Source: Streptomyces poriferorum (GTDB lineage Bacteria > Actinomycetota > Actinomycetes > Streptomycetales > Streptomycetaceae). From it: DNA of 52,660 nt. Where the stretch lies: contig NZ_JAELVH010000010.1 of NCBI RefSeq assembly GCF_019399235.1, positions 1 through 52,660 of the forward strand, given 5' to 3'. The notes below the pieces were generated by a model, which was given only the letters and a program-made list of their open reading frames with translations, was not told the DNA's origin and did not search any database. The position numbers and the translations under genes are program-made. Shown piece after piece: positions 12,904 through 31,703 of the stretch (position 1 is the first letter of the stretch; each line of letters opens with the position of its first letter).

Positions 12904-14250
12904 TCACGCGACGTACTCGAACCGGAGGGCGGAGAGGTCAAGGCTCAGCCACGCCCCGCCGACGGAGTGGGTACGACCGGGAAAATAGGAGCGTGTCGGT
13001 GTTGTCGCCGTGATGGCCGAAAGCACCTCCGCCGTTGTCGCCGTGAGAACCACGGTCCCGGCTCCGTGGGCCACTTTGCCCTCTCTCAGCCTCGCGACAT
13101 CAAGTCGGACCGTGAAGCAGCTGCCGGAGCGCATGCGCTGGACTCCGTCGCCCCTCAGATCGTAAGCGAGCAGCCCCTCGTACTCGTCGTGGGCGTAGTC
13201 GGAAGGAGCGGTTTCGAGACGCACGTTGGACGGCAGTGCTTCGGGGACTTCACTCTCTCCTCCCCGGGCGGCGTGACCGGTGAGGGCAACGGTTCCCTGC
13301 CCGTCCCCACTGCCTCGGCACGTCAATTGCGTGCGGGTTCCGGTCCGGCCGAGCAGCACCGTCGGCCCGCTCGGAGCGCCCTCCTCGTCGAACGGATGGA
13401 CGTGGTACCCGCCGACGGCGGTTGGGTCGTCCAGCACAGTGGCGGGAAACGGGCCTGTGCTGACCGGGAACCCGTCGACCAGGTCCTTGACCACCAGTCC
13501 GAGCAGTGATGCCGCCGCTCTCGGAGCGAGCATCAGCGTGTTCCCGGCACCCGGCCCCGGCTTGGCATGCGAAGCAAGCATCGCTGCGCCGCGCCAACCC
13601 GCCTCTTCCAGGCTCTCCTTCATCGGCAGTTCCCGCAGACGGTGCCCGTGGCGGGCAGTCCAGAGCCGGATCCTCCGGCCGGCCCGCTCGACCTCCACAA
13701 GCGTACGAAGTTCAAGCCGGGTCACCCCGTAGTCGGCGGCCTGCGGACGCTCCGGGGAAGCGAACGCGGTTGCCCGGTGATCCACGGTCAGGACGCAGTC
13801 CGCAATCCTCAGGGAGACGTCCTGGCGGGGGCCCACGAACTCCGCCAGGCCCTGGAGTTCGGTGAGCAGCCGGGCCAGGCTGTCGGGAGTCTCCGCGGTG
13901 TTGTCGAGGAAGGCCACCTGGTCCCAGGTCGTGTCCGGCAGCAGCGGCCGGGCCTCTGCGTAGAGGCGTCCGAAAGGCAGCAACCGGCGGGCGGCCTCCA
14001 GAGCGCCGACCAGCGAGTCCGGTGCGGTGCCGTGGACCGACGTGTGTACGTCCCGGCCCCCAGCGGCGAGACGGACCAGCGTCGTGTCGTTCCGCAGAGG
14101 CGCTCCCGAGCGCACTCCGGCGTCGAGGATCCGGTGCTTGCGCCGGGTCGACGTCAGGACCAGGGCGTCGACGCGTTCGCGGGTGCGGGCACGTCCGGCG
14201 GTGTCCTCCGCCGTACGGCAGGCCTCGTACCGATCGGAAGTCTGGTGCAC
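12904..14250 (-). CDS. TldE/PmbA-like protein (partner of TldD)
   Basis: 448 aa. This is the non-catalytic subunit of the TldD/TldE peptidase family. In the known E. coli pair, TldD and TldE form a heterodimer in which only TldD binds the metal; it trims leader peptides (microcin B17) and degrades unfolded peptides. Here the HExxxH helix is absent, as expected for TldE, while the family's beta-rich C-terminal fold is visible (MLAPRAAASLLGLVVKDL, SYFPGRTHSVGGAWLSLDLS). The GTG at 14250 follows the TldD stop by one base, so translation is coupled. It is the last gene of the operon that encodes the repeat peptide, which suggests it helps process that peptide. TldE assignment is from position, length and fold-level similarity; sequence is divergent. 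Confidence 0.72.
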   Translation of the reverse strand: MHQTSDRYEACRTAEDTAGRARTRERVDALVLTSTRRKHRILDAGVRSGAPLRNDTTLVRLAAGGRDVHTSVHGTAPDSLVGALEAARRLLPFGRLYAEARPLLPDTTWDQVAFLDNTAETPDSLARLLTELQGLAEFVGPRQDVSLRIADCVLTVDHRATAFASPERPQAADYGVTRLELRTLVEVERAGRRIRLWTARHGHRLRELPMKESLEEAGWRGAAMLASHAKPGPGAGNTLMLAPRAAASLLGLVVKDLVDGFPVSTGPFPATVLDDPTAVGGYHVHPFDEEGAPSGPTVLLGRTGTRTQLTCRGSGDGQGTVALTGHAARGGESEVPEALPSNVRLETAPSDYAHDEYEGLLAYDLRGDGVQRMRSGSCFTVRLDVARLREGKVAHGAGTVVLTATTAEVLSAITATTPTRSYFPGRTHSVGGAWLSLDLSALRFEYVA

Positions 14251-14251
14251 G

Positions 14252-15673
14252 TCAACACCGCCAGGTGAGCTGGTCGAATCGCATGGTGGGCGAGTGGAGG
14301 CCGATTCGGACGGACTGCCCCTGCTTCCCGCAGGTCGCGTTGTCACCCTCCACGTCGTCGGCGATGCCGGCGAGCTGCCGAAGGGCATCACGGGCGTCAC
14401 CGAACAGGACCACGTCCTGCAGGGGAATGCTGTCCCCAGCGGGTGTCAGGAAATGGCTCTCCGACGCCGCGAAGGAGAACTCGCCGCGATCCAGGTTGAT
14501 TTCGCCCGAGCTGAGGGCGCCGACGTGCAGGAGACCGCCCCGGGGCGGCTCCAGCAGAACGGCGGTGCTGTCCGGTCCCGGGAGAACGACGGTGTTCGAA
14601 GCTCTGGGAAGCGAGGCATGACGGTAGTCCTCCCTGCGGCCGCTTCCAGTATTCAGGTCGGAGGAGCCGTACACGGCCCTCGTGCAGGTGAGGCGACCGG
14701 CCACGACGCCTCGGTCGACCAGGACCACACGGGTCGCGGCCTGCCCGTCGTCGTCCGTCGCGCAGCTTCCCATGCCTTCGGGAACCCCTGGGTCGTCAAC
14801 CAGTCGCAGCGGAGCCGATGTGAGAGCGGCGCCCATCAGGCCGCCGGTATAGCGCGAACCCTTGGCCAGGTTGTCCGCCTCCAGCGCATGACCGATCAGC
14901 TCATGAAGCAGTGCTGCCCCGACCCGGGGGGCCAGCACCACCGGTGTGGTGCGGACACCGAGCCGTCGGGAGCCGAGCAAGGCCCTGGCACGGTCAGCGG
15001 CGGAGAGGATCAGTTTCTCCGCGGACAGTGCGAGGTCGGGCCCGGCATCTCCGAGCCGCCAGTGCGGGGCGTTGCGCCGAGTGAATACGCGTGCCTGCTG
15101 TCCTTGTCCCCATGCTGTTGCGGCGCAGCGCTGGCGCCCACCGGTGGACCGCCAGCTCCGGCCGGCTCCGGTGGAGTCCACCACTGCCCGCTGCCCTCGG
15201 AAGAAGTCTTGTACGAAATCCACGGACAGGTCCGCGGCGGCAGCCGACCGGGTGATGGCCTCGGTGAGGAGGTACAGGTCTCGGTGAGGCCGTTCCTCCT
15301 CGAGTTCGGAGCACCGAGTGATGGGCTCGGGAGCACGGGGGCGGCCGAAACCCTGGAGCGTGGCCACTCTCTCCGCCAGGAGGCCAGGTTCGGCAAGGGG
15401 AGCGGAGCCGTACCACCAGGAGTCCCGCCGGCGCAGAAGCAGTCCGACTCCGAAGCGGCGGTCCAGCGATGTCCCGTGACCGGCGCGGGCCCCGTGGCGG
15501 ACGGTGCTGTCGAGCCGCACGTGCGATGTCGCCTCGACGAATGCCTGCGCGTACTGCGCGCCCAGCCGTACACCTTCCTCGCACCAGTGCGCGGCGACCG
15601 CCTCGAGAAGGCGGTCGAAGGACGATTCCGGCTCCGCCCCCACATCAGGAGCGCGGTCGGTCGGCGCGGTCAC
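14252..15673 (-). CDS. TldD-like metallopeptidase
   Basis: 473 aa. Catalytic subunit of a TldD/TldE peptidase. The zinc-binding helix LLHELIGHALEAD gives H257, E258 and H262 (HExxxH). The C-terminal TCGKQGQSVRIG supplies the conserved Cys (C449), the third metal ligand in this family. Length matches E. coli TldD (about 480 aa). The GTG start overlaps the nucleotidyltransferase stop as GTGA. I infer that it cuts the leader from the repeat peptide encoded 1.1 kb upstream and may cut between the repeats. TldD/E prefer unstructured peptides, and a chain of valines and aspartates with a flexible leader fits. No other peptidase candidate is in the operon apart from the DJ-1/PfpI protein. Confidence 0.9.
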   Translation of the reverse strand: MTAPTDRAPDVGAEPESSFDRLLEAVAAHWCEEGVRLGAQYAQAFVEATSHVRLDSTVRHGARAGHGTSLDRRFGVGLLLRRRDSWWYGSAPLAEPGLLAERVATLQGFGRPRAPEPITRCSELEEERPHRDLYLLTEAITRSAAAADLSVDFVQDFFRGQRAVVDSTGAGRSWRSTGGRQRCAATAWGQGQQARVFTRRNAPHWRLGDAGPDLALSAEKLILSAADRARALLGSRRLGVRTTPVVLAPRVGAALLHELIGHALEADNLAKGSRYTGGLMGAALTSAPLRLVDDPGVPEGMGSCATDDDGQAATRVVLVDRGVVAGRLTCTRAVYGSSDLNTGSGRREDYRHASLPRASNTVVLPGPDSTAVLLEPPRGGLLHVGALSSGEINLDRGEFSFAASESHFLTPAGDSIPLQDVVLFGDARDALRQLAGIADDVEGDNATCGKQGQSVRIGLHSPTMRFDQLTWRC

Positions 15674-16746
15674 CTGAACAGCTCCCGCGAAACGAGGCCG
15701 CGGCGCAGGAGTACCTGGACGATTTCGTGGGCGCGGCCCGCGGTGAGCGGCGCCTCGTCGGTGCCGGCCGAAAGAGGCTTGTGGAGCGGGACCGCGGCTT
15801 CCACCACTTCCTCCGGTTCGCGGCCGTTGCACAGCCCCCAGACGAGTGCGACGTCGGGCTTCACGACGAACTGCCGCCGCAGTTCGTTGTTGAGCAGCAC
15901 GCCTTCGGTGAGGTGGATGACGTTGTACTGCGGATTCCGTCTCAGAGGTCCTGGCCCCGTCACCCAGAAGGGCCACCGGTTCACCTCGGGCGCGTCCCAT
16001 CCGAGCAGTTGCGAGGCCACCGAAAGCGTCTGCAGGAAGGACAGGAACTCCCGCATCCCCTCGCGAGGGTCTCCGTCAGCCCAGGAACCGGTCTGGAGGG
16101 AGGTGTACAAGCTGTGGGGGAAGTCCTTGCTGACCGATCGCTCGAGCTGGCGGTGCACCCACTTGGTGCCGTAGTACGGATCTCCCGCGGCAGTGGTCAG
16201 GGACTTGCCCGCACAGAGCATCAAGGTCTGTCCGACCAGCGCGGCGGTGGTGAAGTCCTCGTCCTCGCAGGAGCCCTTGAAGTCCGAGAGATGGCCGTTG
16301 GCCTCAAGTGCCCAGTGATTCAGAGTCATCTGCCGCAGCCGGTCCTCGTTGTGAGCCAGCCGGCTGCGGAGGTCCGCCAGATTCGGTGAGTCCTTGACGA
16401 CTTCCATCTGGCGCATGCGCAGGAGCACGTCGAGTTCGTTCCTGGTCAGTCCGGTGGACCGCAGGTCCTGCCGGCTGACGGCCCACTGCTCGACTTTGGC
16501 GAAGGCGTCACGGAACCAGTCGAGAGTGTAGGTCTCGACGTCCAGCCTTTCGCCGCCCTCGGTGATCTGGCGTACCTGGATGTCCGTGTCCGAGGAGACG
16601 ACGGCGAACACGTCCACGTCGCTGGTCGGGCTGCCCAGCCCTGCCGGCAGGCTGCCGGCGAGGTAGATGGCGTCCATGAGCGGGTCATCGGCGAGCCGGG
16701 CGGTCGCGGCACGGGCGGTGACAAGCTTTTCTTCGCGGTATCGCAT
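15670..16746 (-). CDS. Nucleotidyltransferase with C-terminal PqqD-like domain
   Basis: 358 aa. The N-terminal domain is a pol-beta-type nucleotidyltransferase: GS at residues 31-32, then DVD with D43 and D45, then a third acidic residue in RLDVETY (D69/E71). These bind Mg-NTP and the acceptor. The middle is helical. Residues about 268-355 (EGVLLNNELRRQFVV, ALVWGLCNGREPEEVV, IVQVLLRRGLV) resemble PqqD/RRE domains, which bind RiPP leader peptides; this is my reading by eye, not a search result. The gene lies directly after the repeat-peptide gene, with a hairpin between them, and a homologous layout occurs at 34213-35268. I infer nucleotidyl transfer to the peptide or to a peptide-bound group. 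The ATG at 16746 is favoured by AAAGGAA 5 bases upstream. Confidence 0.82.
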   Translation of the reverse strand: MRYREEKLVTARAATARLADDPLMDAIYLAGSLPAGLGSPTSDVDVFAVVSSDTDIQVRQITEGGERLDVETYTLDWFRDAFAKVEQWAVSRQDLRSTGLTRNELDVLLRMRQMEVVKDSPNLADLRSRLAHNEDRLRQMTLNHWALEANGHLSDFKGSCEDEDFTTAALVGQTLMLCAGKSLTTAAGDPYYGTKWVHRQLERSVSKDFPHSLYTSLQTGSWADGDPREGMREFLSFLQTLSVASQLLGWDAPEVNRWPFWVTGPGPLRRNPQYNVIHLTEGVLLNNELRRQFVVKPDVALVWGLCNGREPEEVVEAAVPLHKPLSAGTDEAPLTAGRAHEIVQVLLRRGLVSRELFR

Positions 16747-16770: not shown

Positions 16771-16800
16771 GGGCGTGGACACCGTTCGGCGTCCACGCCC
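16771..16800 (-). terminator. Intra-operon hairpin (attenuator candidate)
   Basis: GGGCGTGGAC (16771-16780) and GTCCACGCCC (16791-16800) form a perfect 10-bp stem with a 10-base loop, in the 68-base gap between the repeat-peptide stop and the next start. Hairpins in this place commonly protect or partly end the transcript so that precursor outnumbers enzymes. Confidence 0.65.
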
Positions 16801-16814
16801 CACTGCATCTACCT

Positions 16815-17033
16815 TCAGACGTCCACGACGTCCACGACGTCCACGACGTCCACGACGTCGACCACGTCGACCACGTCGACCACGTCGATCACGTCCACGA
16901 CGTCGATCACGTCCACGACGTCGATCACGTCCACAACGTCCACGACGTCGACGTTCACGACCGCGGGCGTCGCGGCCTCGACCTGCTCCCGTACTTCGGC
17001 TTCCACGTCGCCGAATTCGAGAATGTCCTCCAT
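16815..17033 (-). CDS. Repeat-core RiPP precursor peptide (15 x tripeptide)
   Basis: 72 aa. Residues 1-27 form an acidic leader (MEDILEFGDVEAEVREQVEA, then ATPAVVN). Residues 28-72 are 15 uninterrupted tripeptides (V/I)-D-V: twelve VDV and three IDV (units 4, 6 and 8), ending exactly at the C-terminus. Read in another phase, the core is 14 Val-Val/Ile-Asp units. There is no Cys, Ser, Thr, Lys or aromatic residue in the core, so lanthipeptide, thiazole or macrolactam-via-Lys chemistry is excluded. Carboxylates and Val/Ile C-H bonds are the only handles. The ATG at 17033 follows AAGGGG by about 8 bases; upstream in-frame sequence is not protein-like. It sits inside the operon, between an ABC exporter and RRE-type nucleotidyltransferase, TldD and TldE. 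Precursor assignment is inferred from these facts; I recognise no named family. Confidence 0.8.
   Translation of the reverse strand: MEDILEFGDVEAEVREQVEAATPAVVNVDVVDVVDVIDVVDVIDVVDVIDVVDVVDVVDVVDVVDVVDVVDV
16818..16952. repeat. Tandem 9-bp array, 15 copies
   Basis: The array encodes the (V/I)-D-V core. Units differ only at synonymous or Val/Ile positions (plus-strand GACGTCCAC, GACCACGTC and similar phases). Blocks of identical units at each end suggest expansion by slippage or unequal crossing-over. Selection at protein level is implied because the frame and the Asp are never broken. Confidence 0.95.
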
Positions 17034-17103
17034 GAGGAACCCCTTCGTTGGTGGTGCACTGCCCCGCACCGGCCGGCGCGGGAGACCCTGGTGCGCGGCC
17101 TGC

Positions 17104-17850
17104 TCAGCCGCGCGAACCTCGCCGGAGGAAGATCTGTACGAGCAGGGCGCCACCGGCGAACCAGACCAGCCCCACGGCCACCTCACCGACTGCGGATTCG
17201 AGGAGGCCCGGACCTCGGCCGACCGGTCCGGAGAGGTATGCCGCGACATGGCTGATCGGGAATGCCTCCGAGACGGGACGCAGAGGCGACGGCAGGTCCT
17301 CGGTGCTCATCAGAGTTCCGGAGAAGACCATGAGCAGCAGATGCGCGAGGTTGGGAGTGGTGAAGACGTCCTTGACCAGGAGCGCGATGCCCGCGGTCAG
17401 GACCCCCATACCGAACGCGCTCACCAGGACCAGGATCAGTGCTCCGGCGAACGTGTGGAGCGGCACGGGAAGGACTCCGTACAGCAGGCCGCAGACCAGA
17501 TAGGTGATCAGCCCGCCCAGAAAGCCGTCGACCAGATGTGGCAGTCCTCGTTGGCAGATGGCCGCCAAGGTGTTCTGCGGCGAGGCCAGCCACAGGTCCA
17601 GCGTTCCGAAGGAGCGCTCGTTGGCGACCGCCAGTGCCAACCCGTATATCACGGCGTGTGCGCAGGCCAGCAGGCTCGCCCCGACGAGCGTGCGCGCCAC
17701 GGAACCGCCGTAGTGGGAGCTGACCGCCGCGAAGGTGACCGCCAGGCCTATGGGCCGGATCAGGCGTGAGCTCAGGTAGCCGAGCGGGTTGAGCCAGGTG
17801 AAGAGCGCGCGGTAACTGAGGGCTGCGCCCTGGAGGACCGGATGGGACAT
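17104..17850 (-). CDS. ABC-2 type permease (minus-arm exporter, second)
   Basis: 248 aa with about six hydrophobic segments. Recognisable features are the coupling-loop text NERSFGTLDLWLASPQNTL (as in ABC-2 permeases that contact the ATPase), a conserved SGTLMSTEDLPSPLRPVSEAFPISH-type segment before the last helices, and a basic C-terminus (LRRGSRG). The start lies 3 bases after the stop of the previous permease. With 17854-18588 and 18585-19529 it makes a three-gene exporter placed directly upstream of the repeat-peptide gene, so it probably exports the mature product or gives self-protection. It has the same architecture as the exporter at 46467-49034. Confidence 0.88.
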   Translation of the reverse strand: MSHPVLQGAALSYRALFTWLNPLGYLSSRLIRPIGLAVTFAAVSSHYGGSVARTLVGASLLACAHAVIYGLALAVANERSFGTLDLWLASPQNTLAAICQRGLPHLVDGFLGGLITYLVCGLLYGVLPVPLHTFAGALILVLVSAFGMGVLTAGIALLVKDVFTTPNLAHLLLMVFSGTLMSTEDLPSPLRPVSEAFPISHVAAYLSGPVGRGPGLLESAVGEVAVGLVWFAGGALLVQIFLRRGSRG

Positions 17851-17853
17851 CGC

Positions 17854-18588
17854 TCAGGCCTCCAGCGGGATGGCGTGGTCACGGACGGCTTGCTGGAGGC
17901 GCAGTACCAGGCCCACCACGATCGCCAGCGAAACAGCCGTGAGCCCGAAAGAAACGGCGAGGCTGCCGGCGTCGGCTCCGCGTACCCAGCTCATGACGTG
18001 TGACTGCGGCATGAGCCAGGAGAGCTGGCGGATCACCGGCGGCAGCGCGTCCCGGGGAACGAGCAGGGATCCGAGAGCGAGCAGCAGGCCCACGAGGCCG
18101 TTCGTCATGCCCGGGGAGAAGGGGAAGCGGAGCACCACGAAGGCCATCAGCCCCACCACGGAAGTGGTGGCAAGTGCCAGCGCTGCACCGCCCACCAGCC
18201 ATCGGAGCCAGTCGAAACCGGGCGCCAGCCCCCACAGAAGGGCGAGCGGCAGCAACGTGCCGGGGAGGGACACGAGCGCCTGGACCGTCATGCCCGCCAG
18301 GCGGCCGAGCACCACGGGAACAATGCCGTACGGGGCTGCCAGGGCCGGGGTGAGGGTACGCCACTGTTTTTCGCCCAGCAGGCTCACCACCACCAGGACG
18401 ATCAGGGCGTCGAGGTAGCCGATGCCGGCGATGCCCACGGCGAATGCCGGGTCGACGGCCGCGGAACTGTAACTGTGAAGGATGACAGCGAAGACCACGG
18501 GCATGATGAGCCCCGCCAGCAGGGCGACCGGGCTGCTCGCCTGCATGCGTATCTGGTCGCCCGCCGCGCGCCAGGTCGTCGCGGTCAC
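17854..18588 (-). CDS. ABC-2 type permease (minus-arm exporter, first)
   Basis: 244 aa, about six hydrophobic segments, for example SPVALLAGLIMPVVFAVIL near residue 20 and YLDALIVLVVVSLL near residue 58. The cytoplasmic loop GEKQWRTLTPALAAPYGI contains the usual ATPase-contact motif of ABC-2 permeases. The GTG start overlaps the ATPase stop as GTGA. Two different permeases with one ATPase imply a heterodimeric membrane part. Confidence 0.88.
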   Translation of the reverse strand: MTATTWRAAGDQIRMQASSPVALLAGLIMPVVFAVILHSYSSAAVDPAFAVGIAGIGYLDALIVLVVVSLLGEKQWRTLTPALAAPYGIVPVVLGRLAGMTVQALVSLPGTLLPLALLWGLAPGFDWLRWLVGGAALALATTSVVGLMAFVVLRFPFSPGMTNGLVGLLLALGSLLVPRDALPPVIRQLSWLMPQSHVMSWVRGADAGSLAVSFGLTAVSLAIVVGLVLRLQQAVRDHAIPLEA

Positions 18589-19529
18589 CGTGAGTCCACC
18601 ATGTCCAGGAAGACCTCCTCCAGACTCGGAGGCGTGACCGAGACGCTTGCGACCTGGTCGCCGAAGCGGGCCAGCACCCAGCCGGCCGCTTCTGCCCCGT
18701 CACGAACCCGCAGCCGGGTGGTACCGCGGTCCTGGCGGCTTTCCAGCAGTCCGGGGCAGGCGTCGCACGCCGGTACCGATTCATCCGCCGCGGTCCAGAT
18801 GATCTGGACCGAGTGTCCGAGGCGGGCGGCGGCGGCCACCCGCAACCGGCCGGGCGTTGCTTCGCTGTGCACGGCGCCGTCCTTCATGAGTACGACACGG
18901 TCGCTGAGCTCCTCGGCCTCTCTCATGTCGTGCGTGGTCAGCAGGATGCTCCGGCCCTCCTCAGCCAGTCCGCCCACCAGCCGGCGCATCGCAGCGGCGG
19001 ACTGCGGGTCCAGCCCGGCGGACGGCTCGTCGAGAATCAGCACCGAGGGCTCGTGCAGCAGCGCCCGGGCAAGGTGCAGGCGTTGCTTCATGCCCCGCGA
19101 GAAGGTGCCCACCGTGTCACCGGCGCGGTCGGCAAGTCCCATCTGCTCGAGAACCGTTACGGAGCGTTGCCGCAGGTGCGACCCCCGAAGGCCGTACATC
19201 AGGCCGAAGAAGGTCAGGTTCTGCAGAGCCGTCAGTCGCGGGTACAGGCCGAGATCGCCGCCCAGGCTGAAGCCGCAAGCCCTGGAAGCGGCACGGCGCT
19301 CACGCACGACGTCGTGGCCGCCGACGTCGGCGGAGCCGGAGGTGGGGGTCAGCAGTCCGGTCAGCAGTCGCACCGTGGTCGTCTTGCCCGCGCCGTTGGG
19401 GCCGAGTACGGACACCAGTTCGCCCGGCTCGACTGTCAGGTCGACACCACTGACGGCGGCCCGTACCCGTCCTGCCTTGTCCTTGAACTCGCGGCTCAGC
19501 GACCGTGTCACGATTCCCTGCTCAGCCAA
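18585..19529 (-). CDS. ABC transporter ATP-binding protein (minus arm)
   Basis: 314 aa. Walker [10 protein letters not shown] (about residues 44-52), signature [15 protein letters not shown], Walker B VLILDEPSAGLDP and switch TTHDMREAEELSDR are all intact. The C-terminal SLEEVFLDMV motif puts it with natural-product exporters of the DrrA/CcmA-like group. The signature is SRGMK rather than SGGQ, a trait shared with the ATPase at 46467-47420, and the two are similar throughout (GLYPRLTALQNLTF versus [14 protein letters not shown]). It overlaps the DJ-1/PfpI gene by 8 bases upstream. It powers the two permeases downstream. Confidence 0.93.
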   Translation of the reverse strand: MAEQGIVTRSLSREFKDKAGRVRAAVSGVDLTVEPGELVSVLGPNGAGKTTTVRLLTGLLTPTSGSADVGGHDVVRERRAASRACGFSLGGDLGLYPRLTALQNLTFFGLMYGLRGSHLRQRSVTVLEQMGLADRAGDTVGTFSRGMKQRLHLARALLHEPSVLILDEPSAGLDPQSAAAMRRLVGGLAEEGRSILLTTHDMREAEELSDRVVLMKDGAVHSEATPGRLRVAAAARLGHSVQIIWTAADESVPACDACPGLLESRQDRGTTRLRVRDGAEAAGWVLARFGDQVASVSVTPPSLEEVFLDMVDSR

Positions 19530-20163
19530 GGCGGGGCTCCTCTTCTTCGTTCGTCGCGGGTCCGGCCGCGCTGATGGTCACGGGCCGGGAAGGAGCAAGA
19601 ACTTCAAGTCGCTGCGCCACGCAGGGCACACACTCGGCGGCGAACCGCCGGATCACCTCGAAGGCGATGTCGACGGCCTTGATCCCCGGTCCCGGAAGCC
19701 CGCCCACGCTGGTGAGGCCCGGGTCGCGGATCAGCCCGCGGCCGATCTCGGCCGACGTCAGCTTCCGCAGCAGATCCTGCTTGCCGCCGTGGACGGCCAT
19801 GCGCCTGGCCGGCACCCCGGCAGCGGCCACCAGCAGAGCGCCGGTGCAGACGGAGAACAACGCGGCCCCCCGCGCAGCCGCCTCCGCAACCGCCTCCCGA
19901 AGCAGCGGGGAGGCCGCGGCCTCCTCCGCGCCCCGGCCGCCCGGAAGTACCACCGCAGCGCACGACGACAGGGCTGCGAGCGTCCGGAGACCGCCGATCA
20001 CCAGCCCGTTGGACCCGGTTACCTCCGGTGTCGGACCGGCTGTCAGCACCCGCAGGCCGCTGTTGTGCTGCGTGCACTGCACCGCTTTGGTCAGAGGCGC
20101 GACGACTCCGGCCAGGTCGAGTTCCTCGACGCCCTCGTAGGCCAGCACACCCACCCAGGTCAC
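19522..20163 (-). CDS. DJ-1/PfpI (GATase1-like) family protein
   Basis: 213 aa. Residues about 1-170 form a class-I-amidotransferase-like fold. The text VGVLAYEGVEELDLAGV, then VVLPGGRGAEE, then ALFSVCTGALLVAAAGV shows the nucleophile-elbow Cys of the DJ-1/PfpI superfamily (about residue 109). Members include isonitrile hydratase, glyoxalase III and amidase-like regulators; GlxA-type AraC regulators carry the same domain but with an HTH that is absent here. So an enzyme (hydratase, hydrolase or deglycase) is likely, and the substrate is unknown. GAGGAGG lies about 7 bases before the GTG at 20163; the longer open frame upstream is not protein-like. It is co-transcribed with the exporter ATPase. 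Confidence 0.82.
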   Translation of the reverse strand: MTWVGVLAYEGVEELDLAGVVAPLTKAVQCTQHNSGLRVLTAGPTPEVTGSNGLVIGGLRTLAALSSCAAVVLPGGRGAEEAAASPLLREAVAEAAARGAALFSVCTGALLVAAAGVPARRMAVHGGKQDLLRKLTSAEIGRGLIRDPGLTSVGGLPGPGIKAVDIAFEVIRRFAAECVPCVAQRLEVLAPSRPVTISAAGPATNEEEEPRLG

Positions 20164-20290
20164 CGCCGGCCTCCTCGGTGAGTGGGGAAGCCGCAGCGAA
20201 GGGGTGCCTGGTGCACGGTGCGGCCCGCCGGCAGGTCCGTCGCGCCGGCTGTCCCGGCGGAGAGGACGGGAGGAAGACACTCCATGGCCC

Positions 20291-21352
20291 TCACAGCTCC
20301 GCGAGCCGGGCGAGCGTGCGGTCGCGGATCTGCGGGTCCAGCATGTCGGCGTTGATGTAGAGGCGTCGCGAGGTCTTGACGAGATCGTGCATGCGCCGCT
20401 TCATCGTCGAGAAGGAGTCGCCGTAGCGCTGGAAGTCGTTGCCCAGATGGGCGAGCACGTCGTCCTTCAGGCCATAGGTGCCGATCGCGAAGGCGAAGAG
20501 GTCCAGGAACGCGTTGAACGTCTCCTCTTCCACGCTCTCGAAGCAGGGGGGCCGATCGGCGTTGTAGTCGATGACGCACAGGTTGCGGACCGTTGCCTCG
20601 GCCGCCGGTTCGTGGCCGAAGATCATTCCGGGATCGAGCCGGTACTCGGACGCGTCCAGGTGCTTCTCCAGCCTGCCGGAGTCGATGAGCTCCTCGAAGC
20701 AGCGGTCCCGGCGGACCCGCATCGCGGAAGGGACTCCGTGCACGGTGCTACCGCTGGTGAGTACATGCGTGTTGCTCACGAAGACCGCGCCGGCCGCGCA
20801 CGCCTGAGTGAGGAAGACGGTCTTGCCTCCGCTCCCGCGGCCGAAGAGCAATGTGGCGCCCGTCGGCTGTGCGAAGGCGGCGGCCTTGAGATGGACCATG
20901 TCGTGGTCCACGGCGAACAGGGTCAGCAGGTGCTTGGTGAAGTAGGGCCAGATGGTGCGTTCCAGCTGGCGGCCGAAGACGTAGATGGTGCTGCCGCGGG
21001 TGACCAGGTAGGCGGGCGGGCCGTAGTGGTGAGTGAGGTAGAAGCCACTCCGGAACCGGTCGGCGCGGAAACCCCGGTCCGCGAGGGGTTCGATCAGTGC
21101 GGGGTCGACCGGATCCCGGTCCAGGTCGACACAGACGATCTCGTAGGCGCAGTGATCAGCGGGCTGGGTGAACCTGCTGAAGTACGAGTACCCGCCGAAG
21201 TCGGCTACGTTGCTGGAGATGCGAAGCCGGAAGAGGTTGAGGTCGACCACCCGGGAGGACCTGACGGAGTAGTGCGGAGCCAGAGTCTCCCGTACGTCGT
21301 TGTCACCGCGGTCGTCCTGGCCGACCGGCGTCGCGGTCTGCCGGCTGGTCAC
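20291..21352 (-). CDS. HprK-like kinase
   Basis: 353 aa from a GTG that overlaps the TOPRIM gene stop. The C-terminal half has a P-loop in the setting of HPr-kinase-related proteins: MVHLKAAAFAQPTGATLLFG, then GRGSGGKTVFLTQAC, then a beta strand AVFVSNTHVL where the family normally shows an acidic pair (DD); here S-N-T is present. The N-terminal half (DFGGYSYFSRF, YEIVCVDLD, YLVTRGSTIYVFGRQLERTIWPYFTKHLLTLFA) matches the N-terminal region of HprK-related proteins of RiPP loci. Such kinases phosphorylate peptide or protein side chains, for example in some lasso-peptide pathways. The core of the peptide encoded downstream has no Ser or Thr, so the acceptor could be an Asp carboxylate, a small molecule or another protein. 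Replacement of the DD motif leaves activity in doubt. Confidence 0.75.
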   Translation of the reverse strand: MTSRQTATPVGQDDRGDNDVRETLAPHYSVRSSRVVDLNLFRLRISSNVADFGGYSYFSRFTQPADHCAYEIVCVDLDRDPVDPALIEPLADRGFRADRFRSGFYLTHHYGPPAYLVTRGSTIYVFGRQLERTIWPYFTKHLLTLFAVDHDMVHLKAAAFAQPTGATLLFGRGSGGKTVFLTQACAAGAVFVSNTHVLTSGSTVHGVPSAMRVRRDRCFEELIDSGRLEKHLDASEYRLDPGMIFGHEPAAEATVRNLCVIDYNADRPPCFESVEEETFNAFLDLFAFAIGTYGLKDDVLAHLGNDFQRYGDSFSTMKRRMHDLVKTSRRLYINADMLDPQIRDRTLARLAEL

Positions 21353-21972
21353 GGTGTCTCCTCACCGGCAAGGCGGGAGCGGTCGAGCGCCTGGGACACC
21401 GCGGCGGTGAATCCGTCGGGGTCGCTGCCGTAGAGGTCGCTCAGGTCGCTGATGCCGTCACCCAGTTTGAGCTCGTGCACCCGGCCGGTGAATCCGAGGA
21501 TGCGGATACGGCGCACCACGGCGGCAACGTATCCCGCCACTCCGTCCGGATAGGTCTGCGCGTTGTCCGCCTCCACCTGGACGAAGACTTCGCCGACCGG
21601 CAGGTGCTCCGGGGCGAGCGCGTCCCAGTGGTCGGAGCCGGGTATGCCGACCGCGGGGAGTCCGTGGTGCCAGGCGGTCCAGCAGTCGGATTCACCCTCC
21701 ACCACGATCTGGTATCCGGCGGACCGGGCGTTGTCCAGTCCGTCGGCGCTGCAGTAGGCCACGACGGGGTGCGCGTCCCCAGGCATCCACGCGGATCCCC
21801 CTGCCCCCCGCATGCCGGTGCGCAGCCGGGTCCGGCCGGGCGTTCCACCCGGGGCCACGTAAGTGAACCGGACCCCTTCGTCCACGTCGCTCAGCCCGAA
21901 GCGACGCAGCGCCTCCACCGGAAGCCCTTTGGCCTCTGCGAGACGTGCGACGGTCACCCGTCCGTCAGTCAT
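21349..21972 (-). CDS. TOPRIM-domain, primase-like protein
   Basis: 207 aa. The N-terminal 70 residues (VARLAEAKGLPVEALRRFGLSDV, then a beta-rich stretch) match the start of phage/ICE-type primase-like proteins. The TOPRIM domain follows: YQIVVEGESDCWTAWHHGLP with the catalytic-type Glu, AVGIPGSDHW, and FVQVEADNA in place of the DxD strand. No helicase or zinc-finger domain is present. The protein normally belongs to DNA replication or mobile elements, so its place in a biosynthetic operon is unusual. TOPRIM folds catalyse Mg-dependent nucleotidyl or phosphotransfer, so recruitment to small-molecule or peptide chemistry is possible. AGGAGA lies 4 bases before the ATG; the stop overlaps the HprK-like start. 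Confidence 0.78.
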   Translation of the reverse strand: MTDGRVTVARLAEAKGLPVEALRRFGLSDVDEGVRFTYVAPGGTPGRTRLRTGMRGAGGSAWMPGDAHPVVAYCSADGLDNARSAGYQIVVEGESDCWTAWHHGLPAVGIPGSDHWDALAPEHLPVGEVFVQVEADNAQTYPDGVAGYVAAVVRRIRILGFTGRVHELKLGDGISDLSDLYGSDPDGFTAAVSQALDRSRLAGEETP

Positions 21973-22042: not shown

Positions 22043-23035
22043 TCATGCCGGCAGGGCGGCTGCTCCCCGGTCCTCGGGACAGGCAGGCTCGTCGGCCGCC
22101 CACGCGGACCGGCCCACGTCGGGAATGACGGGTTCCACTTCCAGGTGCCGGGCGCTCAGCTCTGCGGCCACCGCCACCCGGTCCCAGTGCCGCCACTTCA
22201 GCCCCAGCCGGTCCGCCTGGTCGAGGAGAGACCGCCAGTCCCTGCTTCGGCCCGATCGAACCCGCTCGAGCAGCGAGTTCAGTTCCGTGCCGTCCGGCCG
22301 GTCGGCCAGTAACCGGCCCAGCCGCTCGAGTGCTGACTTCCAGGACAGGTCGCAGGCCTCGGTACGTTGCTCGATCTCGGCGAGCACGGCCAGCACCTGG
22401 TCGGTCGCGTCCTGTCTGGCATCGAGAGCGCCGAGCAGTCGGGTGCGTTCCGGCCGGTCGAAGAAGATGCCGAGCTCTCGCACGATGTCCGCGGGTTCGT
22501 CGGAGACATGGACGTAGGTGAGCACCGAGGCCTGGGCAGCCCCCGCGATCCGCCTGAGATGATGTGTCTCGCGGTCCTCGGGCCGGCTCGGTCCCTTCAG
22601 CCCGCTCAGCCGGGTGGTGGCCGGGATCCCGGTCTTCCGGGTGTCCCTGAGCAGTACGTACAGTGACTCGCCCGCCGGCATGATCAGGTCCATCACGTCT
22701 ATGCGCTCACGGGTGGCGATGTTCAGCTGGTACCGCCACACCTCACGCGTGGTGTGGCGGTCGAACCGGAATCTGCTCCAGGCCACGGGGACGAAGCCGG
22801 CGTCCCGCACCGCCGTCAGCAGCCCGGCTCCGCCTCGGGCGGCTACCGCGTCAGGACGCAGAACGAGGGGGGCGACGGTGTGGAGAGCTTCCGCGACGGC
22901 CGGCCCCGTGCCCAGCAAGGCCGAGACGTCGTCCCAGGCATCCCGGTAGTACGGATCGCCGGCGTAGATCTCCCGTTTGCGTTCGACCCTCGAGAGCCAC
23001 TCGGGTACGTGGCAGCTTGGTCCACCTCGCTGCAC
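22043..23035 (-). CDS. NDP-kinase-like domain protein
   Basis: 330 aa from a GTG one base after the carbamoyltransferase stop. Residues about 55-195 read as a divergent nucleoside-diphosphate kinase: APLVLRPDAVAARGGAGLL, then GFVPVAWSRFRF, LSGLKGPSRPED, and YVHVSDEPADIVRELGIFF, which aligns with the family's NxxHGSDS block and keeps the phospho-accepting His (H176). Canonical enzymes are about 140 aa; here there are 54 extra residues before and about 135 after, the latter helical and Glu/Arg/Leu-rich. It could regenerate NTP for the neighbouring nucleotidyl-, carbamoyl- and phosphotransferases, or act directly on a pathway intermediate. Its divergence and extra domain favour a specialised role. 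Confidence 0.72.
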   Translation of the reverse strand: MQRGGPSCHVPEWLSRVERKREIYAGDPYYRDAWDDVSALLGTGPAVAEALHTVAPLVLRPDAVAARGGAGLLTAVRDAGFVPVAWSRFRFDRHTTREVWRYQLNIATRERIDVMDLIMPAGESLYVLLRDTRKTGIPATTRLSGLKGPSRPEDRETHHLRRIAGAAQASVLTYVHVSDEPADIVRELGIFFDRPERTRLLGALDARQDATDQVLAVLAEIEQRTEACDLSWKSALERLGRLLADRPDGTELNSLLERVRSGRSRDWRSLLDQADRLGLKWRHWDRVAVAAELSARHLEVEPVIPDVGRSAWAADEPACPEDRGAAALPA

Positions 23036-23036: not shown

Positions 23037-24677
23037 TCAGGCCCTCTCGTACAGCATGCCGTCCGACCAGACCGCCGGGACCCGGCCCCACCGCATCGCG
23101 CTGCGCACGTCGGGGAAGAAGCCGCTGCCGTTGAGGTTGGCGCTGGTGTTGCACAGCAGCGGAATGCCGCTGAGCCGCTCGTACTCGGTGAGGACCTCGA
23201 AGACGAAGGGATCGTCCCGGGGACCGACCGTCTGGACCCGGGCCGTGCCGTCCAGGTGGACCACGGCGGGCACCCGGTTCTGCCAGTCCGGCCGCACCTC
23301 GTGCTCGAAGAGCATGTACGGGTCGGGCACACCGGGCGTGAACACCTCCGGCGCCCGCGCCTCCAAGCAGATCGGAGCCACCGGACGGTAGCGCTCACGC
23401 CCCTTGACGTCGTTCAGGCGGTCCTTCATGCCAGGGTCGGATGCGGGCGCGAGGATGCTCCGGTGACCGAGCGCCCGCGGCCCCAGCTCGGCCCTGCCGT
23501 GCAGCACCACCACAGGGTCCCCCGACTCGTGCAGCCGGCCCGCCAGTTCGGCAGCCGAGCACGGCCGCACCGCCCAGCCCGGCATCGGCTCCGAGGGGAC
23601 GAGCGCGGGACCCGCGTAGGTATCCCATTCGAGGTGGACGGGGCCGGGGGAGCGAAGCAGTTCGCAACAGGCCGCGCCGAGGGCGCTGCCCGCGTCGTTC
23701 GGGAAGGGCGGCACCCATACCGTGTCCGCGATGCCCGAAGCGCGGATGTCACTGTTCCACTTGATGTTGAGGGCACAGCCACCGACCAGACAGAGGTTCC
23801 GGGTGCCCCGGCCGTCCGCCGCGATCTTCTCCTTCAGCCCGTCGACCAGTGCCCGGCCCAAGAAGGTGTGAATCGAGGCGAGGACGTCGGCGGGGCGCGC
23901 CCCTGTGCAGTCCAGCTCTTCCTTCATCCGGGCCAGGATCCGTCGTCCGGCAGCCTCGGTCAGCAGGTCGTCGTCCGGCTGGTCCGTCCCGAAGACCTCC
24001 CGTTCCGCTTCCCGCAGGAGGACTTGCAGGGACTCGACGACTCCCTCGTCCGCGGTGCCGTGGGCGATGTACGCCATGATCTTGCCGGGCAGCGCGAGCG
24101 TGTGGGGCCACTGGAGCGGGGCGTCGAAGGGAGGGCAGGCCATGGCCAGGGTGTGATAGGTGTCGCCCAGCATGTGGTGAACCGCGCCCAGGCTCTCCAT
24201 GACCTGGGTTGACGGGTCGTAGTGGTACAGGAACGGGAACATCGCTCCGTCCCAGCAGAGGACGTACGACGGCTCCGCTGCCCTCGCGAAAGGGCTGGAG
24301 CAGTACGCGCTGGCCACATGCCCCGCGTAGTGCGGGTAGCTGGTGTACTCCAGATCGAGCATTCGGGAGACGTAGGGCCGTAGCAGGTTGTCGTCGACCA
24401 GTCCCCGGCGGTACGGAGCCAGATCGATCAGCGTCTCCTGGCCGCCCCAGGGCTTCACTTTGTGGGTCTTGCGCCAGCCGTCCACCACGAAGCGGTCCAC
24501 GTCGGCGAGCCGGTAGCCGTACTCGACGAGCAGCCGGCTCACGATCTCGAGGTCGTCAATGCGCTGATGGCGCGGATTGTTGGCGAGCTTCTCCATCTCG
24601 ATGGAGAAGACCAGCCGTCCGTCGTCGATGAGGGCGACGCCGCCGTCATGGGTGAGTTTGACACCGCAGATGATCAC
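23037..24677 (-). CDS. O-carbamoyltransferase (NodU/CmcH/TobZ family)
   Basis: 546 aa. Two-domain carbamoyltransferase. The N-terminal ATPase-like half begins MIICGVKLTHDGGVALIDDG and contains HYAGHVASAYCSSPF, the His pair that binds metal in TobZ. CLVGGCALNIKWNSDI is the nucleotide-binding segment. The C-terminal half has HGRAELGPRALGHRSILA and PLLCNTSANLNG, both highly typical. The family makes carbamoyl-adenylate from carbamoyl phosphate and ATP and passes the carbamoyl group to a hydroxyl of a natural product. The acceptor is not evident: the repeat core has no hydroxyl, so a hydroxylated residue, a cyclitol or the NRPS product is needed. The ATG overlaps the radical SAM stop as ATGA. Confidence 0.93.
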   Translation of the reverse strand: MIICGVKLTHDGGVALIDDGRLVFSIEMEKLANNPRHQRIDDLEIVSRLLVEYGYRLADVDRFVVDGWRKTHKVKPWGGQETLIDLAPYRRGLVDDNLLRPYVSRMLDLEYTSYPHYAGHVASAYCSSPFARAAEPSYVLCWDGAMFPFLYHYDPSTQVMESLGAVHHMLGDTYHTLAMACPPFDAPLQWPHTLALPGKIMAYIAHGTADEGVVESLQVLLREAEREVFGTDQPDDDLLTEAAGRRILARMKEELDCTGARPADVLASIHTFLGRALVDGLKEKIAADGRGTRNLCLVGGCALNIKWNSDIRASGIADTVWVPPFPNDAGSALGAACCELLRSPGPVHLEWDTYAGPALVPSEPMPGWAVRPCSAAELAGRLHESGDPVVVLHGRAELGPRALGHRSILAPASDPGMKDRLNDVKGRERYRPVAPICLEARAPEVFTPGVPDPYMLFEHEVRPDWQNRVPAVVHLDGTARVQTVGPRDDPFVFEVLTEYERLSGIPLLCNTSANLNGSGFFPDVRSAMRWGRVPAVWSDGMLYERA

Positions 24678-26650
24678 ACTGCGCCTCCGTCCGCTGCCGC
24701 GGGGACGGCCGACACCTTCGCGAGGATCTCGTTGGCCCTCGGGGTCAGGCGCGTGGCGATGCCATCGCGGTCACCACCGGCCGGGAACGTGACGACCTCG
24801 CAGGAGTGGTCGTAGCGGTCATGTCCCTCATAACCCAGACCGACCCGGAAGCCGTCGATGCCTTCGGCGTGCTCGGCCAGCCAGACCGTCACTTCCCGTG
24901 CTCCGCCCTCGCCGTCGGTGTGCCAGGCAGTTCCCGCCCGGGCGACGGCCGTGCCGTCCTCCTCGGTGATCTGCTGGACGCTGTCCGCCAGCGCACTCAG
25001 CAGCACGGCATCCGCGGCGAGGCCGTCCAGCAGATGCTCCAGCTCCTGCCAGATCTGTTCCTCGGCCCCTTCCGGGAGGGTCTCGCTGTCCTCGAGGAAG
25101 TCGAAGAGCCGTTGGAAGACGTAGAAGTAGCAGTCGCGGTCGGACTGGTCGACCCGGCGCATCGCCTGGCTGAGACACTCGAACAGCCAGCGAGGCATGG
25201 GTGTGCGGGTCTTGTCCTCCAGGACCCGCTCCATGAACGCTTCCCGGGCGGCAAGCACGGCCATCGCCCGTGAGTCGGCCTCGTACCTGCGGTGGAACCT
25301 GCGGAAGGCAGGCTCGAAGGAGTTCACCCGCGGATCATCGAAGGTGTAGATCCACCGGTCGCCGAGGGCCGAGTCGTCGACCCGGCCCAGTTCGATCATC
25401 CGCCGGTACTGAGGGGTGCCCCAGTAGATGTTCATCTTGTTCTGAAGGTGCTGCACCTTGGCGTACCCGGAGTCCCGGATCCACCGGTACTGCTCCTTCA
25501 ACTCGTCGAAGGTCATCTCCGGGTCGAACATGATGTAGCCGAAGTTGATCTGGTGCGGTGCCATACCGACCTCGCGCAGCTCACGCAGCGCGCGGTCGTT
25601 GTCCTCGACGGTGGTGCCCTTGTCCCACCGCAGGAGGACGGAGTCCACACCGGACTCAGCCCCGATGAAGAGACGGTGCATGCCCACGTCCATGAGCCTG
25701 CGGACCAGTGACTTCTCAATGGTGTCCGCGCGCATCTCGGCGTAGAAGTTGACCTCCAGCTTGCGCTCGGTGAGCAGGTCGCAGAAGTCGTGGACCCAGC
25801 GGATTCCGGTGGGGGAGGGCATGATGAACAGATCGTCCACGAAGGAGAAACGGCTGACGCCGTAACGGTCCTTGACGGACTGCATCTCGTCGGCGATGCT
25901 CTCCGGCGACCTGCGCACCACGTTGTGGTCGCCGTAGATCTGGTGGATGGAGCAGAAGGTGCAGGAGGCGTAACAGCCCCGAGACGCCACCAGGTAGGCG
26001 GAGTTCGAGCCGCGTGAGTTCTGGGCGAGCATCTCCTGCAGGTCGTGCCGGGCAGGGAAGGCCAGACTGTCGAGGTCCCTGATGCGCGGCCGGTCCGGCG
26101 TCCGGACGAACTCGCCGTCCACACGCAGGGACAGGCCGCGCATCTCCCGCAGCGGCAGTCCCTGCTGGATGCGTGCGGCCAGCTCCACGATCGCGTACTC
26201 GCCCTCGCCGCGGACGATGGAGTCGATCTCCGCACAGTCGGCGAGGATCTGTCCGTCCGCCGCGCTCGGGAAGACGCCGCCCAGCGTGATGTGTACGTCC
26301 CGCCGCACAGCCTTCACGAGGCGGGCGATCTGCCGGGCGGCACGGTAGGTGCGCTGGGACTTGGCGGAGATACCGATCAGCCTTATCCGCGGGTCCGCCA
26401 GAAGCCGCTCGGCCACCTCCTCGGGATTGATACCGAGAAGCTCCGCGTTGATGCTGGTCGAGGTGTAGCCGTGCTTGTCCAGAGAGCCGGCCAGGTATCC
26501 GAGGGCAAGGCTTTCCCGGTACTTCAGCCGGTTCTTCTGCCATGCCTCGACGAGGTGGGGGTGCACCAGACCCACGACGAAATCGGGGTCCTCGTTGCGG
26601 TGATCGGCGAAGGGATGAAGCACCGTCAGCGGCAGGGGTGATCTCTTCAC
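24674..26650 (-). CDS. B12-binding-type radical SAM enzyme
   Basis: 658 aa. Residues about 45-165 form a cobalamin-binding-type Rossmann domain (LIGISAKSQRTYRAARQIARLV, ITLGGVFPSA, IDSIVRGEGEYAIVEL) without the DxHxxG motif, as in many base-off B12 radical enzymes. The radical SAM core holds SRGCYASCTFCSIHQIY with C226, C230 and C233 (CxxxCxxC), which ligate the 4Fe-4S cluster. FSFVDDLFIM, GAESGVDSVLLRWDKG and the remaining barrel strands follow. Residues about 450-658 are an extra C-terminal region. The family performs C-methylation at unactivated carbons, ring contraction or other radical steps; methylation of Val/Asp positions or of a cyclitol are options. The GTG at 26650 has GAGGA 5 bases upstream; the longer open frame overlaps the cupin gene and is not protein-like. 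Confidence 0.92.
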   Translation of the reverse strand: MKRSPLPLTVLHPFADHRNEDPDFVVGLVHPHLVEAWQKNRLKYRESLALGYLAGSLDKHGYTSTSINAELLGINPEEVAERLLADPRIRLIGISAKSQRTYRAARQIARLVKAVRRDVHITLGGVFPSAADGQILADCAEIDSIVRGEGEYAIVELAARIQQGLPLREMRGLSLRVDGEFVRTPDRPRIRDLDSLAFPARHDLQEMLAQNSRGSNSAYLVASRGCYASCTFCSIHQIYGDHNVVRRSPESIADEMQSVKDRYGVSRFSFVDDLFIMPSPTGIRWVHDFCDLLTERKLEVNFYAEMRADTIEKSLVRRLMDVGMHRLFIGAESGVDSVLLRWDKGTTVEDNDRALRELREVGMAPHQINFGYIMFDPEMTFDELKEQYRWIRDSGYAKVQHLQNKMNIYWGTPQYRRMIELGRVDDSALGDRWIYTFDDPRVNSFEPAFRRFHRRYEADSRAMAVLAAREAFMERVLEDKTRTPMPRWLFECLSQAMRRVDQSDRDCYFYVFQRLFDFLEDSETLPEGAEEQIWQELEHLLDGLAADAVLLSALADSVQQITEEDGTAVARAGTAWHTDGEGGAREVTVWLAEHAEGIDGFRVGLGYEGHDRYDHSCEVVTFPAGGDRDGIATRLTPRANEILAKVSAVPAAADGGAV

Positions 26651-26711
26651 GACGTCCTCAATCAGTTCGGGTGGTGGGGCGGGGGAGAGAGGGAGGGTCG
26701 GAACAGGCGTG

Positions 26712-27374
26712 TCAGGCCAGCAGGCCCAGCTCTGCCAACTTGAGTCGTACGCTGCCCAGTTCGGCGCGCCCGATTTTGCGCTCCCCGGGTTCCTGCGCCT
26801 CCTTGGCGTTGGAGCCGCCGACCCGCGTGCGGGTCGTACCCTCGACGAAGTCGTAGATGCGGAAGCTGCTGCGGTCACGTGGCCCCTGGATGACCAGGCT
26901 GATGGTGCCGGGGTTGGCGTAGACGGCGTGGACGAACGCGTTGTCGAGCGTGTAGCTGGAGCCGGGCAGCTGCTCCTGAATGAACCTGGGGTCGGGTGCC
27001 TGGGCGGGGCGGTTCTCGTCACCCCAGATGTCCTCGACGTTCCCGTACAGAACGTGGCGGTAACTGCCGCGAAGAATCAGCGAGCTGAAGCTCGCGCGAT
27101 GGTTGTGCGCTTCCTCGACCATGTGGTCTCCGAAGATGTGCAGCCGCAGCCGCACACCGGTCTCCGGATCGTCCTGCAGCACGAACTTCTGGAACGTGTT
27201 GAATGCCTCGGCACTTGCGGCGAGCTGTTCGTCCTCCTCCATGCGGTCCCACAACCGGCCCAGTTCGGCCGGCTCCGCCAGCACAGGGAGGGCCGCTGCG
27301 GCCGCCTCGTGGACCTGCTCCAGACGGCGCCAGTCGACCTGGTGGAACGCCTTCGTCAGAATGTCGATGCTCAT
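26712..27374 (-). CDS. Cupin, cysteine-dioxygenase-like
   Basis: 220 aa. A cupin barrel with HNHRASFSSLILRGSYRHVLY, giving metal ligands H90 and H92, and a third candidate His at about 149 (NAFVHAVYANPGTISLVIQGP). The layout and length resemble cysteine dioxygenase-type or other non-haem iron cupins. It probably hydroxylates or oxygenates a pathway intermediate; hydroxylation would create the acceptor that the carbamoyltransferase needs. No glutamate ligand of the classic cupin motif is obvious, which again is the CDO pattern. The ATG overlaps the PfkB kinase stop as ATGA. The specific substrate is unknown, and a sugar-isomerase-type cupin is the alternative. Confidence 0.75.
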   Translation of the reverse strand: MSIDILTKAFHQVDWRRLEQVHEAAAAALPVLAEPAELGRLWDRMEEDEQLAASAEAFNTFQKFVLQDDPETGVRLRLHIFGDHMVEEAHNHRASFSSLILRGSYRHVLYGNVEDIWGDENRPAQAPDPRFIQEQLPGSSYTLDNAFVHAVYANPGTISLVIQGPRDRSSFRIYDFVEGTTRTRVGGSNAKEAQEPGERKIGRAELGSVRLKLAELGLLA

Positions 27375-30591: not shown

Positions 30592-30605
30592 GTTGATCCT
30601 TCTGC

Positions 30606-31616: not shown

Positions 31617-31703
31617 TGCGCCCCAACTCCTCACCGATCAAGGGACCGGAGACTCAACTAGGAGTTACGGCACCGAGACTGAGACCTGCCTGGCTTGGCC
31701 GGG

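Follow-up and report, generated by a model that had tools for sequence, protein, structure and literature searches.

What is made from a 72-residue peptide that ends in 15 contiguous (Val/Ile)-Asp-Val units? The question is raised by a gene at 16815..17033 of a 52,660-nucleotide stretch of Streptomyces poriferorum (NZ_JAELVH010000010.1, positions 1 to 52,660), called the window throughout. An earlier note on this DNA took the gene for a small precursor of a ribosomally synthesised and post-translationally modified peptide (RiPP) with many cores. We find that the open reading frame (ORF) is very likely the translated precursor of a peptide-modifying pathway, and that this precursor is likely multicore. 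The best explanation of the whole, which we consider probable, is a multicore RiPP precursor modified on Asp by a nucleotidyltransferase, cut by TldD/TldE and exported by an ABC transporter.

The putative precursor gene ends in a tripeptide array

The gene and its parts are as follows.

16815..17033, minus strand: 72-residue precursor peptide gene, a 27-residue leader-like part and 15 contiguous (Val/Ile)-Asp-Val units; stop codon included
16818..16952, minus strand: tripeptide array of 45 codons, within the precursor gene
17013..17033, minus strand: leader motif MEDILEF; its D-I-x-E-F is common to all nine aligned precursors

The ORF runs on the minus strand from an ATG at 17033 to a stop at 16815 and has 72 codons. 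Its position, strand and repeat count are as the earlier note gave them. Read back from the stop, the last 45 residues are 12 VDV and 3 IDV units, and the final unit abuts the stop. Tandem Repeats Finder independently places the DNA array at 16818-16953, with a period of 9 and 15.1 copies. Residues 1-27, MEDILEFGDVEAEVREQVEAATPAVVN, are acidic and non-repetitive, in line with the leader-like start that had been proposed. A GAAGGGG ribosome-binding site lies a few bases 5' of the ATG, and the peptide is single-copy in the window's genome. The core contains no Ser, Thr, Cys, Lys or Tyr.

Four of the five alternative reading frames of the array are also open. Strand and frame are therefore assigned from the leader, the ribosome-binding site, the operon direction and conservation. 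All 15 units have GAC as their central codon, beside mixed Val codons (GTG, GTC and GTT). Together with equivalents at nine other distinct loci, this invariant GAC next to varying Val codons makes the array more than chance.

Ten loci pair an array with a related nucleotidyltransferase

Homologue searches started from the nucleotidyltransferase, which is encoded by the gene that follows the precursor. An array was scored at six or more units, counted back from the stop as X-[Asp/Asn]-[Val/Ile/Ala], with junction units included (FDA, DNA, ENA; VDV and ENI in locus L007). Nine loci of the genome-contig set encode a relative of the nucleotidyltransferase. Eight (L002-L009) have an array that reaches the C-terminus, and the ninth (L010) has a 16-residue peptide. 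A genome search contributed a further array locus, L048. With the window there are ten distinct array loci, and in each the array ORF is short and immediately precedes a nucleotidyltransferase gene of this kind.

The genome searches matched 28 of 295 genomes, with an array in the window's own genome alone; 4 of 394, two with an array (the own genome and G417, which is the L002 contig); 9 of 392, three with an array (the own genome, L047 and L048); 8 of 297 and 3 of 54, one with an array each time (G417); and 5 of 293, two with an array (the own genome and L073). Loci from these searches mostly span about 1.5 kb either side, and duplicates were counted once (L047 = L005, L073 = L009, L056 = L010, L039 = L002). 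A plasmid search gave one weak match only. The arrays are listed below.

Window: 15 units, VDV/IDV
L002: 16 units, VDA
L003: 11 units, VDV/ADV/TDV
L004: 14 units, ANI/GNI
L005: 12 units, ANV
L006: 13 units, ANV
L007: 10 units, 8 of them NNI
L008: 19 units, ANV
L009: 11 units, ANV
L048: 14 units, ANV and one ANI

Repeat number thus ranges from 10 to 19 units. The window, L002 and L003 have Asp at the centre of the unit and the other loci have Asn, save one Asp at the L007 junction. The other unit positions can also be Ala, Gly, Thr or Asn, so the earlier claim of a core built only of Val, Ile and Asp is true of the window and does not extend to the other loci. Every one of the ten arrays closes with a complete unit, and the last residue of the precursors is Val, Ile or Ala.

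Four columns are invariant in an alignment of nine precursors (without L048), and these are the D, I, E and F of D-I-x-E-F. Read directly, the L048 sequence carries the motif too. Exact GGAGG precedes the start at 7 of the 10 loci; the others have GAAGGGG (window), GGGGG (L006) and GCGAGG (L009). Measured against each array's commonest codon, with the first unit of each array excluded beforehand, array codons differ synonymously 98 times and non-synonymously 16 times, whereas unconstrained arrays would be expected to show about 85 non-synonymous differences among the 114; the test assumes independent differences, which tandem duplication violates, and its significance is to be taken loosely. 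The array residues, flanking ones included, are under constraint.

A chance low-complexity ORF, born of DNA slippage of a 9-bp repeat, has in its favour the database proteins P0059, P0061 and P0083, short sequences with V-D-V or N-I arrays and no leader motif, and the fact that a reversed (NNI) array also spells (DVV). This origin is already contradicted by the ten loci, their common leader motif, the synonymous codon turnover and the fixed position, and we give it the least credence of all the explanations weighed here. Hardly more credible is a translational attenuator, in which a Val/Ile-rich leader ORF would sense charged tRNA and regulate the operon. Such an element would also be a short frame behind a ribosome-binding site, in which codons for a handful of amino acids recur. 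However, in the window, L002 and L003 the ORF follows ABC genes within a co-directional run, its units vary across loci (Ala, Asn, Gly, Thr), and a conserved peptide motif precedes the array.

A precursor-based protein database search gave at least 47 matches, drawn from 7979 candidates, and eight of the matches were inspected. The leader motif is present in two, P0057, with GNV/GNI units after it, and P0056, which is apparently cut at a contig end; the other six lack it.

Strand assignment has a trap of its own at L007:9782-9922 and L004:9733-9921, where the reverse strand of the Asn array also reads as Asp-Val tripeptides, for example (NNI)n as (DVV)n.

Single-core relatives form a separate group

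An unrooted tree of 22 chosen nucleotidyltransferase rows joins the ten array loci in one group (98/96). This group splits into an Asp group of three (100/99) and an Asn group of seven (100/99). The tree leaves out L017-L038, L042, L061 and L062, which are weak matches, and L072 and L074-L076, which stem from later searches or duplicate other loci. The earlier note had held that related operons without such an ORF would speak against a precursor; all ten distinct loci in the window's tree group have an array ORF directly upstream. The homologous operons, whose comparison it had proposed, keep the leader motif and differ in repeat number. Arrays, leader motif and varying repeat number together support its multicore reading.

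The three rows that have a single-core peptide cluster on their own (100/100), and no precursor was recognised in nine rows. The more distant nucleotidyltransferases lack arrays, and three have a 16-residue single-core peptide instead. This peptide is MGDEIIEEEELGMIVI in L010 (9766-9816) and MGEDIVVEEELGTNAI in both L057 (1213-1263) and L058 (1212-1262), with GGAGG in front. The single-core clusters L010, L067 and L068 hold TldD, ABC genes and an NDK-like gene, and L067 and L068 also hold two cupins. One L010 gene bears the label TldE by position only. A related cassette therefore exists in one-core and in many-core form, in an order that the unrooted tree does not fix.

Nucleotidyltransferases 33-38% identical to the window's also occur in L012, L013, L014, L041 and L050, directly behind a long ORF that is B12 radical SAM-like by eye. 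These loci have no array, and the R-x-D-x-E motif was not found in them by pattern.

Putative processing and export genes adjoin the array

Six genes next to the precursor in the window may serve its processing and export.

15670..16746, minus strand: nucleotidyltransferase, 358 residues, of a family with a PqqD-like C-terminal end
14252..15703, minus strand: TldD-type metalloprotease with a HELIGHALE site; start codon uncertain
12904..14301, minus strand: TldE/PmbA-like partner without HExxxH; start codon uncertain
17104..17850, minus strand: ABC-2 type permease
17854..18588, minus strand: second ABC permease; Pfam score under cut-off
18585..19529, minus strand: ABC transporter ATPase

In tblastn searches the genes for the nucleotidyltransferase, TldD and TldE adjoin one another at 8 of 8 loci (L002-L009), and ABC genes are present in seven of these. 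The ATPase and two permeases lie upstream in the window, L002 and L003 and downstream in L004-L008. Some genes, such as those for TldD and the ABC proteins in L002 and L007, were recovered by tblastn after simple composition-based gene calling had overlooked them. The TldD/TldE neighbours named in the earlier note are real, as TldD and a TldE-like protein. The zinc site HExxxH of TldD (M103) is present in 11 of 11 TldD sequences. A C-x-K-x-G pattern occurs in 8 of the 11 and is missing from L004, L010 and L067. The C-terminal half of TldD aligns to Escherichia coli TldD (5nj5, E 2.9e-33).

The same note called the nucleotidyltransferase RiPP recognition element-like. In its family 8 of 14 aligned members match Pfam PqqD, the window's own protein not being one of them. 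Invariant G31, S32, D43, D45, D69 and E71 form GS...DxD plus further acids, the pattern of the pol-beta/ANT superfamily. The fold is that of aminoglycoside nucleotidyltransferases. A sequence search of the alignment against solved structures gave E 0.09 and weaker only, with kanamycin nucleotidyltransferase at the top.

The constant presence of TldD/TldE next to the array in L002-L009 also bears on a structural peptide, an array left uncut that would fold or polymerise into a beta-helix, pore or fibre and be exported whole. Strict period, alternation of hydrophobic and polar residues and variation in repeat number would suit such a peptide. A protease pair beside the array would not, and related TldD and exporter clusters have a 16-residue peptide, seemingly too short for such a structure. 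We consider this reading improbable.

The rest of the window operon

The remaining genes of the co-directional run are listed in order from the ABC genes.

19522..20280, minus strand: DJ-1/PfpI family protein; start uncertain
20291..21352, minus strand: FomB-family kinase (NCBIfam NF000361, 523.7 bits, cut-off 400); not found in other array loci
21349..21972, minus strand: 207-residue protein; no Pfam, NCBIfam or PDB sequence match
22043..22960, minus strand: NDK-like protein with the conserved His of the H-x-x-D motif; start uncertain, Pfam score under cut-off
23037..24677, minus strand: NodU-like carbamoyltransferase
24674..26716, minus strand: B12-binding radical SAM protein; start uncertain
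26712..27374, minus strand: protein modelled with a thiol-dioxygenase cupin fold
27371..28354, minus strand: PfkB-family kinase
28351..28773, minus strand: ORF that we take to be RidA-like
28766..29542, minus strand: short-chain dehydrogenase
29536..30609, minus strand: myo-inositol-1-phosphate synthase-like protein
30606..31634, minus strand: Gfo/Idh/MocA oxidoreductase, likely the first gene of the run

The Pfam scan (E 0.01) covered 20 window ORFs. These include 18 of the 19 genes in the run 12904-31634, the RidA-like ORF being the exception. The radical SAM neighbour of the earlier note is the B12-binding protein at 24674..26716. The note's HprK-like kinase passes the cut-off of the FomB-family model, FomB being an HprK-like enzyme. 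No phosphonate mutase match was found among the scanned window ORFs, although this FomB-family phosphonate kinase model passes its cut-off (20291-21352, putative activity). A sequence search of the kinase against solved structures gave one match at E 0.66, which was disregarded. The PDB sequence search gave no match for the cupin alignment, the 207-residue protein or a 426-residue protein of L063, which may be NagA-like by its motifs.

Some of these genes recur. Relatives of the cupin occur in L003, L007 (two), L063, L067 and L068 (two each) and L016, and NDK-like genes occur in the window and near L004-L007, L010, L067 and L068. Within 10 kb there is a 33%-identity RidA match in L005, and short-chain dehydrogenase matches of 28% in L003 and L007. 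A Gfo/Idh C-terminal domain is encoded nearby in L007. The window's kinase, carbamoyltransferase and inositol genes were considered as part of a common system, which the 10 kb around L002-L009 do not support.

A proposed pathway

The favoured pathway would begin with the PqqD-like end of the nucleotidyltransferase holding the leader (step 1). The enzyme would then modify the Asp of each unit (step 2). Asp/Asn is the likely modification site because it carries the only conserved functional side chain over all arrays, and the window core offers no Ser, Thr, Cys, Lys or Tyr. That the nucleotidyltransferase acts on Asp/Asn is plausible, and we hold it with some doubt. The added group may be a nucleotidyl, phosphoryl or sugar/cyclitol-phosphate unit: the enzyme has the fold of aminoglycoside nucleotidyltransferases, and the window also encodes a FomB-family kinase, an NDK-like enzyme and enzymes of inositol and sugar type. 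TldD/TldE would cut the array into modified tripeptides by three-residue release (step 3), and the ABC exporter would secrete the product (step 4). Tripeptide release by TldD/E is slightly favoured over its absence. The E. coli enzyme is described as taking peptides N-terminus first with no sequence preference, and its authors assume release of tripeptides (PMC5810440, PMC10885120), which would fit the three-residue unit. The register would have to be set by the modification or by the C-terminus, since most precursor lengths are not multiples of three.

The Asp/Asn side chains could also serve as a carrier scaffold on which a sugar- or cyclitol-phosphate or a nucleoside is built, the peptide being discarded or reused as in pearlins. 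Sugar- and cyclitol-type genes in the window, genes of the acetylxylan-esterase, HAD and MOSC families near the ANV loci L006 and L063, and outer residues that differ among loci around a constant Asp/Asn would all agree with this, and TldD/E is described as freeing small products from scaffold peptides too (PMC12424672). Yet the flanking residues are constrained, for which a plain spacer would have less need. In addition, no locus has a truncated C-terminal unit, and the Pfam scan of 18 operon proteins shows no PEARL domain (lantibiotic-dehydratase-like). We regard a scaffold as unlikely, though the strongest of the rivals.

Several points weigh against the pathway of modified, released tripeptides. 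A fixed three-residue register from the N-terminus was considered and is not supported by precursor lengths, which modulo 3 are 0,0,1,2,2,2,1,2,1,2; eight of the ten cannot be divided by three. The TldD/E pair Amm12/13 is described as releasing a C-terminal dipeptide, and other pairs as removing leaders in one cut (PMC12424672). The unit count presupposes Asp/Asn in the middle and Val, Ile or Ala last. The window's own nucleotidyltransferase has no Pfam PqqD match, and its Pfam score as a nucleotidyltransferase is 18.2 bits, under the cut-off of 21. By tblastn, no ABC genes were found within 10 kb of L009, NDK-like genes were not found near L002, L003, L008 and L009, and TldE was not found in the single-core loci L010, L067 and L068. 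The TldD-type protease PbsP is described as working without TldE (PMC12257519), so such loci need not be disabled. No match to the window's FomB-family kinase, carbamoyltransferase, PfkB or inositol-synthase was found in the 10 kb around L002-L009, and for the window's B12 radical SAM protein there is only a 22%-identity match, in L008. Chemistry guessed from window-specific enzymes may not be general, and the mature compound is inferred.

There is a fair chance that the system is a new RiPP class. More specifically, and only tentatively, we suggest a class in which an aminoglycoside-type nucleotidyltransferase with a leader-binding PqqD end would decorate the Asp/Asn of every spacer-free tripeptide and TldD/E would act as a three-residue ruler. 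A peptide of 46 to 77 residues would then yield about 8 to 18 phosphorus-linked sugar-, cyclitol- or nucleotide-tripeptides, and the sister clade would arrive at a compound of this kind from a one-core precursor 16 residues long. In that case the family would record the passage of a RiPP between one core and many.

Comparison with known systems

Many cores per precursor are also found in cyanobactins, fungal phomopsin/dikaritins and KEX2-processed repeat proteins, where the cores are separated by protease sites and are longer than three residues. If our reading is true, the core here would to our knowledge be the shortest contiguous repeated core among RiPPs.

The closest described case found is that of the thiovarsolins (varA, Streptomyces varsoviensis). 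As described (PMC6511847), these are actinobacterial RiPPs with a repeating core, a family that runs from non-repeating to five repeats, tripeptide products (N-acetyl-APR) and, in some cases, clusters beside nonribosomal peptide synthetase (NRPS) and polyketide synthase genes. In contrast to the bare tripeptide array, the repeats there are imperfect and enclose APR. Thiovarsolins are reported to be made by YcaO/TfuA from a cluster described without a specific protease (PMC6511847), whereas TldD/E adjoins the array here. Neither YcaO nor TfuA had a Pfam match among the scanned window ORFs.

In pseudomycoidin, a RiPP nucleotidyltransferase (PsmN) is likewise described with an HPr-kinase-type enzyme (PsmK), and phosphate and hexose are added; however, the C-terminal Ser of a single lasso core is modified (PMC8498205, PMC9266682), and the window core has no Ser. 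By analogy it is a precedent for a kinase and a nucleotidyltransferase giving a phosphoglycosylated peptide. No lasso B2 protease or asparagine-synthetase-like cyclase matched Pfam among the 20 ORFs.

Other systems share the protease. A heterodimeric TldD/E matures the RiPP microcin B17, where it is described as trimming the leader and halting at heterocycles (PMC5810440), whereas here the core itself would be the substrate. TldD-type proteases also serve peptide-modifying pathways in the ammosamide pearlin (Amm12/13) and the biphenomycin type (PbsP), and PbsP acts without TldE (PMC12424672, PMC12257519), as single-core relatives may. These systems are described with one core or scaffold per peptide, and with PEARLs or MNIO/B12-SAM chemistry rather than a nucleotidyltransferase beside an array (PMC12424672, PMC12257519). 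Among the scanned window ORFs there was no Pfam match to a PEARL (lantibiotic-dehydratase-like) ligase or, for the microcin C type, to ThiF, and the precursors have no C-terminal Asn. Pearlins, microcin C and lasso peptides each have one element in common with this system and fail a defining one. Among the open-access PMC titles and abstracts listed for this array, the cassette or its enzymes, none describes it, which does not prove absence.

Implications

If the reading is true, the modification chemistry in the window core cannot use Ser, Thr, Cys or Lys. The system bears on three questions, namely the role of nucleotidyltransferases in RiPP clusters, the cutting step of TldD/E and the origin of multicore precursors. 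Gene callers may miss such precursors, since the leader motif was present in just two of the eight database matches inspected. Such operons are present in named strains, for example an ANV operon in S. seoulensis A01, so the question is open to direct test.

Surrounding genes

The region 3' of the exporter of the ANV operon at L063:8687-14256 encodes two NDK-like proteins, a BFD ferredoxin, an acetylxylan-esterase family protein, a MOSC protein, a cupin, a HAD phosphatase and a weak CYTH match; the NDK-like, BFD and esterase proteins were scanned in the L006 copy. This gene company is unusual for a peptide.

On the plus strand of the window, divergent from the operon, 32516-46146 holds an AMP-binding ligase, a second nucleotidyltransferase-like ORF (34213-35268, weak Pfam match) and a 3480-residue NRPS with three condensation, three adenylation and three carrier domains and a thioesterase. 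L009 is also near NRPS-like ORFs, one a 27% AMP-ligase match and the others judged by eye. On the minus strand at 9308-11214, the window has ORFs rich in G-P-x-x-G-G-T-x-V-x-x-x-G repeats, which presumably resemble IPT/TIG surface domains.
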